From NCBI RefSeq assembly GCF_026810225.1, contig NZ_CP113865.1, forward strand, positions 411,001 through 475,000: a stretch of 64,000 bases of DNA, in the 5' to 3' direction. This document shows positions 35,024-38,319 of the stretch, piece by piece (within the stretch, counting starts at the first letter, position 1; each line of letters opens with the position of its first letter). Under the pieces are notes generated by a model. It worked only from the letters and a program-made list of their open reading frames with translations. It was not told the DNA's origin and did not search any database. This DNA is from Caldicellulosiruptor morganii. Lineage in GTDB: Bacteria > Bacillota > Thermoanaerobacteria > Caldicellulosiruptorales > Caldicellulosiruptoraceae. A program made the position numbers and the translations under genes.

Positions 35024-35052
35024 TTGACAAATTGCAAAATGAAGAATATAAT
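35024..35052 (+). promoter_or_regulatory. sigma-A promoter upstream of amt
   Basis: TTGACA (35024-35029), a 17-base spacer and TATAAT (35047-35052): both hexamers are consensus. Confidence 0.85.
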
Positions 35053-35079: not shown

Positions 35080-35121
35080 AAAGGCAAAGGCGCCTTTCAA
35101 AAGGTTGCCTTTGCCTTTTTT
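35080..35121 (+). terminator. leader terminator upstream of amt
   Basis: AAAGGCAAAGGC (35080-35091) pairs perfectly with GCCTTTGCCTTT (35107-35118), with an inner CCTT/AAGG stem, then a T run. It would stop the transcript about 60 bases from its start unless prevented. Confidence 0.8.
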
Positions 35122-35290
35122 ATTTACCAATGCAACTTACTCAATACTTCTTTTACCCCATATGGGATAATACTCCACCCACAACCCCATTTGTAATGTT
35201 TTTTCCTTATATTTTTTCTTTAAAGCAGCTTTTTTATTATACCACATAAGTTTATTTCTAAAAAGAGGGGCGCAAGGAGGTGTCAAACAA

Positions 35291-35323
35291 ATGCTTTTAA
35301 AAGACATGTCAAGTTTTAATTAA
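35291..35323 (+). CDS. candidate 10-residue leader peptide of amt
   Basis: ATG at 35291 opens MLLKDMSSFN and a stop. AAGGAGGTG stands eight bases upstream, better than the site of amt itself. The stop codon is three bases before the amt ribosome site, so translation of the peptide could affect amt translation. Confidence 0.4.
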   Translation: MLLKDMSSFN

Positions 35324-35339: not shown

Positions 35340-36677
35340 ATGAATAGAGGTTTTAAAGTGCTACTTGGTATTGTACTTTTAATCCTGGCTGTGATATTAG
35401 GATTTAGCACAGCAAAAGCTGACCAGATTACACCTGAAAAGGTTGCAACAGCTATTGATAATGTATGGGTGCTTGTCACAGCGTTTTTGGTCTTTTTCAT
35501 GCAAGCAGGGTTTGCAATGGTTGAAGCAGGTTTTACAAGAGCTAAGAACGCAAGCAACATTGTTATGAAAAACTTAATGGACTTTGCAATTGGTTCTGTA
35601 ATTTTCTGGCTGTTTGGGTTTGCATTCATGTTTGGCAACGACGCTGGTGGTTTCATAGGAACGTCAGGATTTTTCCTGAGCGATTCATTCAAACATTTAG
35701 GGCTTTCAATTCCGCTTACATCATTTTTGATGTTCCAGACAGTTTTTGCAGCAACAGCTGCAACAATTGTATCTGGTGCTATGGCTGAGCGAACAAAGTT
35801 TATTGCATACTGTATCTACAGCGCAGTTATTTCATTCATAATATATCCTGTTGTTGGTCACTGGGCATGGGGCGGCGGCTGGCTGAGCAAGCTTGGTTTT
35901 ATTGACTTTGCAGGCTCCACTGTTGTTCACTCAGTTGGTGGCTGGTGTGCTCTAATTGGCGCCGCAATGCTTGGACCAAGGATTGGTAAGTACACAAAAG
36001 ATGGCAAGGTCAATGCTATCCCAGGCCATAGTATAACCTTAGCAGCACTTGGTACATTTATCTTGTGGTTTGGCTGGTTTGGATTCAACCCAGGTTCTAC
36101 CCTTTCAGGTATGAACGATAAAATCGGCGATATTGCAGTCAATACAAACTTGGCAGCTGCAATGGGTGCAGGCTTGGCGATGATATATACATGGATAAAG
36201 TACAAAAAGCCTGATGTCAGTATGACACTAAACGGTGCTTTGGCAGGGCTTGTTGCAATCACAGCAGGATGTGCATCAGTCAACACATGGGGTGCAGCAA
36301 TTATTGGTGGGCTTGCAGGAGTGCTTGTAGTTATCGCTGTTGAGTTTATTGACAAAAAGCTAAAAATTGACGACCCGGTTGGTGCAATCTCAGTTCATGG
36401 CGTTTGTGGTGCGTTTGGAACACTGATGGTTGGGCTTTTTGCAACAGATGGTGGACTTTTCTATGGCGGTGGAATAAAGCAATTTTTAGTTCAGCTTGCA
36501 GGTGTAGCTTCAACATTTGTATGGACCACAATAACAGCCTTTATCCTCTTTGCAATTATCAAGCTCACAGTTGGCTTGAGAGTCTCTGAAGAGGAAGAGA
36601 TAGAAGGTCTGGATGTTGCAGAACATGGTGCATCAGCGTATGGCGACTTTGTAATGAAGTCTCAAGCAGTGAAGTAA
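35340..36677 (+). CDS. amt: ammonium transporter
   Basis: The 445-residue membrane channel imports ammonium. It has an N-terminal signal-like segment and eleven further hydrophobic segments. The twin pore histidines are in STVVHSVGGW and ISVHGVCGAFG, and the family segments FMQAGFAMVEAGF and GWFGFNPGS are clear. The C-terminal tail is the part that GlnK normally blocks. glnK lies 44 bases downstream, the usual pairing. The start follows gaggaggg. Confidence 0.95.
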   Translation: MNRGFKVLLGIVLLILAVILGFSTAKADQITPEKVATAIDNVWVLVTAFLVFFMQAGFAMVEAGFTRAKNASNIVMKNLMDFAIGSVIFWLFGFAFMFGNDAGGFIGTSGFFLSDSFKHLGLSIPLTSFLMFQTVFAATAATIVSGAMAERTKFIAYCIYSAVISFIIYPVVGHWAWGGGWLSKLGFIDFAGSTVVHSVGGWCALIGAAMLGPRIGKYTKDGKVNAIPGHSITLAALGTFILWFGWFGFNPGSTLSGMNDKIGDIAVNTNLAAAMGAGLAMIYTWIKYKKPDVSMTLNGALAGLVAITAGCASVNTWGAAIIGGLAGVLVVIAVEFIDKKLKIDDPVGAISVHGVCGAFGTLMVGLFATDGGLFYGGGIKQFLVQLAGVASTFVWTTITAFILFAIIKLTVGLRVSEEEEIEGLDVAEHGASAYGDFVMKSQAVK

Positions 36678-36703: not shown

Positions 36704-37060
<357 letters not shown>

Positions 37061-37111
37061 AATTTGAAGGCTTGCCTCTATCTTTGCTCAATAGTTTCCC
37101 GCTTACAATTT

Positions 37112-37280
37112 GGCAACAGCAGGCATCCAAAACACCCCAAAATTGAGAGGATAAATCCGCCTTGCCTCTTGCGCCCCTCTCTTTTGAAAAAGTGAATAAT
37201 GTGTTTTGTGCCTGCCATTGCCAGATGTTTATTTGCTTTGGCAAAGCCTAAAATGTTTGGTTGTCTGCTGTTGCCCTTTT
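37112..37280 (+). ncRNA. candidate switch-like leader RNA before nifH
   Basis: The left arm 37112-37134 begins GGCAACAGCAGGCA. It can pair with the right arm 37254-37275, which ends TCTGCTGTTGCC and runs into CCTTTTT. The same left arm can instead pair with the middle arm 37209-37222 (TGCCTGCCATTGCC). Further small stems (GAGAGG/CCTCTC and GCTTT/AAAGC) lie between. The two pairings exclude each other. Confidence 0.55.
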
Positions 37281-37314
37281 TATAGATTTTACCTTATATT
37301 TCGATTAAAGATAA

Positions 37315-38319
<1,005 letters not shown>

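Follow-up and report, generated by a model that had tools for sequence, protein, structure and literature searches.

How nitrogen fixation is controlled in anaerobic diazotrophs without nifA, including Caldicellulosiruptor and Clostridium, is an open question (PMC8209448). The nif set published for Caldicellulosiruptor, a genus that lacks nifA, comprises nifHDKEB together with nifI1/nifI2 (PMC8209448), and the gene order of the locus studied here agrees with it. In a 64,000-nt stretch (hereafter the window, to which all coordinates refer) of the 2.48 Mb genome of Caldicellulosiruptor morganii, the ammonium transporter gene amtB (35340-36677; Pfam PF00909) and the PII gene glnK (36722-37060; Pfam PF00543) are followed by a gap of 438 nt, nifH (37498-38319; Pfam PF00142), two PII genes, nifD, nifK, a third nitrogenase-type gene and a radical-SAM gene. 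The genes, promoter, arms, pairing sites and hairpins located below all lie on the + strand. The question raised by this locus is what the glnK-nifH gap contributes to nif control. The amtB-glnK-nif transcript presumably starts at a TTGACA-17-TATAAT promoter upstream of amtB (35024-35052; 12/12 matches), the sole 12/12 promoter in the region, kept in eight of the nine Caldicellulosiruptor leaders compared. A promoter belonging to nifH itself was rejected, as the best match upstream of nifH reached 9/12 and did not exceed shuffles; a sigma-54-like reading of TGGCAACAGCAGGCAT, made by eye, was rejected because its spacing is one base too short.

Within the gap we delimited a candidate cis-RNA, element 1 (37103-37291; model R1, alignment A2). 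Its arm A (GGCAACAGCAGGCATCCAAAACACC, 37112-37136), divided into A1 (37112-37127) and A2 (CAAAACAC, 37128-37136), is complementary to both arm B (GTGTTTTGTGCCTGCCATTGCCA, 37201-37223) and arm C (37254-37275, ending in TTTGGTTGTCTGCTGTTGCC), and the three arms have a common core, GGCAAYRGCAGRCA. A first-pass annotation of this DNA had proposed a terminator/anti-terminator switch on these grounds, and the coordinates of its two complementary arms are confirmed. The eleven perfect A-C pairs that it described are likewise present (GGCAACAGCAG/CTGCTGTTGCC), followed by a G.U and then shorter blocks, so that C forms a 16-bp pairing with A1 including one wobble. The TTTTT said to follow arm C directly does follow it, one base later, behind an intervening C. 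This terminator-like U tract (TTTTTATAGATTTTA, 37277-37291) is kept past the T run in 9/9 genomes, with one extra C in clade 2. We saw no reading frame conserved in element 1.

Among gapless inverted repeats in the 438-nt gap, the best one pairs 37112-37131 with 37256-37275 and scores 42.5, against a mean of 24.3 and a maximum of 38 in shuffles, none of which (0/400) reached that score. The gapless A-B score was matched by 8/400 shuffles of a shorter stretch; with the bulge counted, A and B form 21 bp. Furthermore, the predicted RNA fold of 37090-37290 has a z of -3.9, and not one of 200 shuffles was as good.

The arms allow two alternative folds, A1-B2 with A2-B1 (the 21-bp hairpin) or A1-C with A2-B1. 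B1 (GTGTTTTG) and A2 are partners in both, B2 pairs with A1 solely in the A-B fold, and A1 switches between B2 and C. As the annotation had claimed, the two pairings are mutually exclusive and the second adjoins a T run, and this holds in all nine nif-bearing Caldicellulosiruptor genomes. Judged from its sequence, an anchored A2-B1, an A1 predicted to exchange strands and a T run after C make up an attenuator-like layout. The minimum-energy fold is A-C in 9/9 genomes at both 37 C and 70 C, with a gain over an unpaired arm C of about 8-13 kcal/mol at 37 C and 2-6 kcal/mol at 70 C. Since A-C is the more stable fold in every genome, A-B would need kinetics or a factor to hold.

We found element 1 at the glnK-nifH site in 9/9 Caldicellulosiruptor genomes with nifH that we examined, and it was absent from 3/3 genomes of the genus without nifH. 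A genome of a sister genus (G012) has nifH in another gene order and carries no element. The simple repeat initially considered as an alternative is refuted, as the full element is single-copy in each genome and always at the same site. A search of the glnK-nifH gap against Rfam, under strict and permissive settings, returned no family at gathering score or a meaningful E-value, in agreement with the earlier remark that no nif riboswitch of this form is known to have been described. Elsewhere in the window, the bacterial large SRP RNA (RF01854; 54414-54685) is ordinary. A core-motif scan of 84,980 species, a collection that may omit close relatives of the window's genome, gave among 16 rescored hit loci only two Thermoanaerobacter records in context; hits of the pattern AGRGGGYGCARG were left out of these results. 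Likewise, a model of the 5' half of the element, run with stricter filters over 398 genomes of the phylum, found nothing convincing outside Caldicellulosiruptor.

Element 1 shows no variation among the nine genomes at 144 of its 177 ungapped columns, and its unbroken invariant stretches measure 32, 15, 12, 23 and 14 nt; in glnK of the same genomes, 60 of 113 third positions vary and the longest invariant coding run is 20. Arms A and B never vary, none of the 21 A-B pairs being variable, and C is nearly invariant; the A-C helix is paired in 99.5% of cells, its single variable position having changed on one side. The annotation had asked for compensatory changes as its test. We saw none in the A-B or A-C helices of the nine-genome alignment, yet the arms are essentially invariant, and covariation therefore neither proves nor disproves the switching structure.

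Considering these results, element 1 is a real, conserved, nif-linked cis-element that most likely acts as RNA. We read it best as an attenuator or a processing element that works in cis at the border of amtB-glnK with nif, a reading that we propose tentatively, giving it somewhat less than an even chance. We favor it because the A/C repeat exceeds all shuffles and the fold stands well apart from them, because the element follows the presence of nifH, because its invariant runs are long compared with the variable third positions of glnK, because a second element in the same leader covaries (see below), and because the genus has no nifA. The sole 12/12 promoter upstream of amtB also counts in its favor, as do the wobble in A-C and the variation at U24, both of which fit RNA pairing on the + strand. 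Against it counts the A-C stem itself: its 16 bp enclose a loop of 124 nt and are followed by C-UUUUU(C)AU, with 5 U only, which makes C a weak textbook terminator. Our terminator scan accepts loops of up to 8 nt and hence could not list this stem. Moreover, the conserved sequence continues past the U tract (ATAGATTTTA) and also takes in unpaired loops, and a simple terminator has no need of either. It also counts against this reading that neither A-B nor A-C shows a compensatory change, and that the element is known from one genus, plus a half module in another. In sum, the exclusive folds, the T run and the nif-linked conservation of the proposed switch stand, and compensatory changes in its switching helices are absent; with no covariation there, the label of riboswitch is, on present alignments, not earned.

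What we observe are the sequences with their complementarity and conservation, and the order in which the folds rank by stability; from there we infer readthrough, switching, termination and a signal in the following manner. RNA initiated at the amtB promoter, presumably an amtB-glnK-nifHI1I2DKE transcript, would read through glnK, and arm A would pair first with B into the 21-bp hairpin. Newly made C would then take A1 off B2 while A2-B1 remained paired, and the resulting longer stem would stop one base short of UUUUU. Such an A-C stem could make transcription terminate or pause, or give rise to a processed 3' end, and nif would thereby be uncoupled from amtB-glnK; if A-B were held, nif would be made. 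A candidate signal for the balance between A-B and A-C is the state of the amtB mRNA, sensed through pairing of the 5' half of the element with the amtB leader, a pairing that seems to form in Thermoanaerobacter even without nif.

This arrangement resembles terminator/anti-terminator leaders such as riboswitch platforms and amino-acid attenuators, in which two exclusive helices ahead of a metabolic operon have a 5' arm in common and a U tract comes after the later of them. Element 1 differs from them by its 124-nt loop, its short U tract and its intercistronic place behind glnK, and it has no known aptamer, leader peptide or covariation in the switching helices.

Attenuation may not be limited to the gap. 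ANTAR antitermination has been predicted to operate ahead of genes for nitrogenase and ammonium transporters (PMC3369931), and in the amtB leader we found a promoter-proximal terminator that overlaps an ANTAR-like hexaloop hairpin (AAAGGC-AAAGGC-GCCTTT; 35080-35122), the overlap expected of a P2 hairpin, within about 30 nt downstream of the perfect sigma-A amtB promoter. The AAAGGC loop (35086-35091) is present in 11 genomes, the Thermoanaerobacter-type ones included, and in an outgroup genome (G014) the loop is retained on a stem that has changed. G014 matches the published 13-nt ANTAR consensus at 12/13 positions and the window at 10/13. A P1 hexaloop hairpin further upstream was not found in the window, and a candidate exists only in G014. 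Every genome of the family carries an ANTAR gene. In G012, an ANTAR-domain regulator gene lies directly upstream of glnK-amtB-nifH (L075 719-1327); the other family genomes have one ANTAR gene, located elsewhere. The ANTAR-like leader and the ANTAR genes suggest that the whole amtB-glnK-nif operon is probably attenuated at its start, and element 1 would then be a second, intercistronic attenuation point. The locus thus shares with ANTAR control (EutV, NasR, AmiR) a nitrogen operon, an attenuation logic, ANTAR proteins in the family and the amtB-leader hexaloop. Element 1 itself was rejected as an ANTAR target of the form described so far, in which two hairpins carry AxxGxx hexaloops and the second overlaps a terminator, as the glnK-nifH gap has no AxxGxx hexaloop hairpin with a 4-bp stem.

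Two segments outside the interval of the first-pass annotation also matter, 37319-37392 and 35264-35276. The first, element 2, is a three-tier hairpin just before nifH that is paired in 98.8% of cells, with three compensatory base pairs between two clades and a covariation score reached by 0/500 shuffles; as the three changes fall on one inter-clade branch, they amount to few independent events. Element 2 possibly serves mRNA stability or as a binding site.

The second segment, AGAGGGGCGCAAG in the amtB 5' leader (35264-35276), is the exact complement of CTTGCGCCCCTCT in element 1 (37168-37180), the 3' arm of a proposed long-range pairing, and the window's genome has no further site of this 13-mer. 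A short upstream reading frame, MLLKDMSSFN, possibly occupies 35288-35322, downstream of the G-rich motif and ahead of amtB; the short frames of relatives differ from it. The 3' site belongs to an unpaired block of element 1 that is itself conserved (37157-37180), and pairing with the amtB leader may explain this conservation at least as well as an aptamer would. The 3' site is also the last part of the A-half (37103-37180), the 5' half of element 1, which was also found by itself. In three Thermoanaerobacter-type genomes, which belong to another family and give weaker model R1 matches, the A-half stands alone after amtB-glnK, and the stretches compared there contain neither B nor C nor nifH; two of the three match records of Thermoanaerobacter thermocopriae and Thermoanaerobacter sp. 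A7A. The A-half is an older module than the whole of element 1. Its occurrence alone in Thermoanaerobacter, together with its complementarity to the amtB leader, points to an RNA function wider than that of a nif-only terminator switch. GlnK of the Thermoanaerobacter-type genomes is 95-98% identical to that of the window. The near identity of their amtB-glnK proteins with those of Caldicellulosiruptor points to horizontal transfer, and a sequence that by eye resembles an IS256-type transposase remnant follows their A-half.

These observations bear on an alternative that we regard as possible, if doubtful: the element may be mainly the 3' UTR of amtB-glnK, whose A-half would pair with the amtB 5' leader, perhaps with its Shine-Dalgarno region, to limit amtB translation or create an RNase III site, with B and C added in nif-bearing genomes to gate or mask the A-half. 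The A-half and a close glnK (at least 94% identity) co-occur in exactly the same 12 of 37 genomes of the class, as this reading would have it. Of 77 cells over six distinct variants, 76 (98.7%) hold standard pairs between the two sites, thin counts as these are, and in the Thermoanaerobacter-type genomes both arms changed together from G-C to A-U (CTTGCACCCCTCT / AGAGGGGTGCAAG); the remaining variants give G.U pairs, except for one indel class. The shuffle control is weak, however: the covariation was matched by 43/500 shuffles, which is only suggestive, and the 13-nt match was reached by 10/1000 shuffled leaders. Folding of whole mRNAs (2.1-2.2 kb) is divided as well, with a pairing probability of about 0.9-1.0 in the three Thermoanaerobacter-type genomes and of 0.00-0.10 in four Caldicellulosiruptor genomes, the latter speaking against a 3' UTR role. 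In the outgroup G014, amtB-glnK has neither pairing site and ends in an ordinary terminator after glnK, in keeping with such a role.

A precedent for such control is icaR of Staphylococcus aureus, whose mRNA carries a C-rich 3' motif complementary to its own G-rich 5' UTR (PMC3868564). In our case the complement is longer (13 nt), is conserved in two genera and has an operon downstream; it sits some 50 nt ahead of the amtB Shine-Dalgarno, which counts against the 3' UTR reading. Going by the complementarity, 35264-35276 and 37168-37180 likely form an icaR-type 5'-3' contact within the amtB-glnK mRNA, with opposed operators as the alternative.

That alternative extends to the whole element: the three repeats could be double-stranded operators for a nitrogen regulator, with the inverted copies looping and RNA folding a by-product. 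The core of A, B and C is strictly conserved without covariation, arm A is conserved alone in Thermoanaerobacter-type genomes, where no RNA partner B or C exists, and an oppositely oriented element is found in the amtB leader, all of which would suit operators. We nevertheless consider this unlikely, since a search of the genomes allowing up to 3 mismatches gave no more copies of arm A, the core falls short of a clean palindrome, the common region contains a 2-nt length difference, the G.U-compatible variants suit + strand RNA, and conservation extends to the long unpaired block that separates A from B.

In two genomes (G008 and G011), a urea-transport-like and urease gene block separates glnK from nifH; there the A-half precedes the urtA-like gene, and the complete element stands upstream of nifH. 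The direct A-half copies are identical within each genome, which suggests recombination or gene conversion. A multicopy dispersed repeat or MITE was rejected, given one copy per genome and, in G008 and G011, a half and a full copy at the same locus. That the element is an inverted repeat arisen by chance or left as a relic, or else a miniature mobile element, is highly improbable despite the terminal inverted repeat, the overall size of about 165 bp and the half copies flanking the urea-gene insertion, because there is one copy per genome at the same site in 9/9, invariant although glnK third positions of these species differ at about 40%.

Returning to the attenuator or processing element that we prefer, RNA-level control of nitrogenase has precedents in NfiS and NfiR of Pseudomonas stutzeri and in sRNA154 (PMC6606865, PMC9170634). 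Those RNAs act in trans from their own genes; element 1 would act in cis, in the leader. A bolder proposal, that pairing between the amtB and glnK-nifH leaders shifts the A-B/A-C balance and gates entry into nif without NifA, would make the element a new class of RNA switch, and we judge it decidedly unlikely. In broader terms, nitrogen fixation in nifA-less Caldicellulosiruptor may be set partly by an RNA switch. Named arms placed exactly between amtB-glnK and nifH make nif control without nifA directly testable and, if the reading is true, it would mean cis-RNA control of nitrogenase in thermophiles and provide a usable part for regulating nif clusters.
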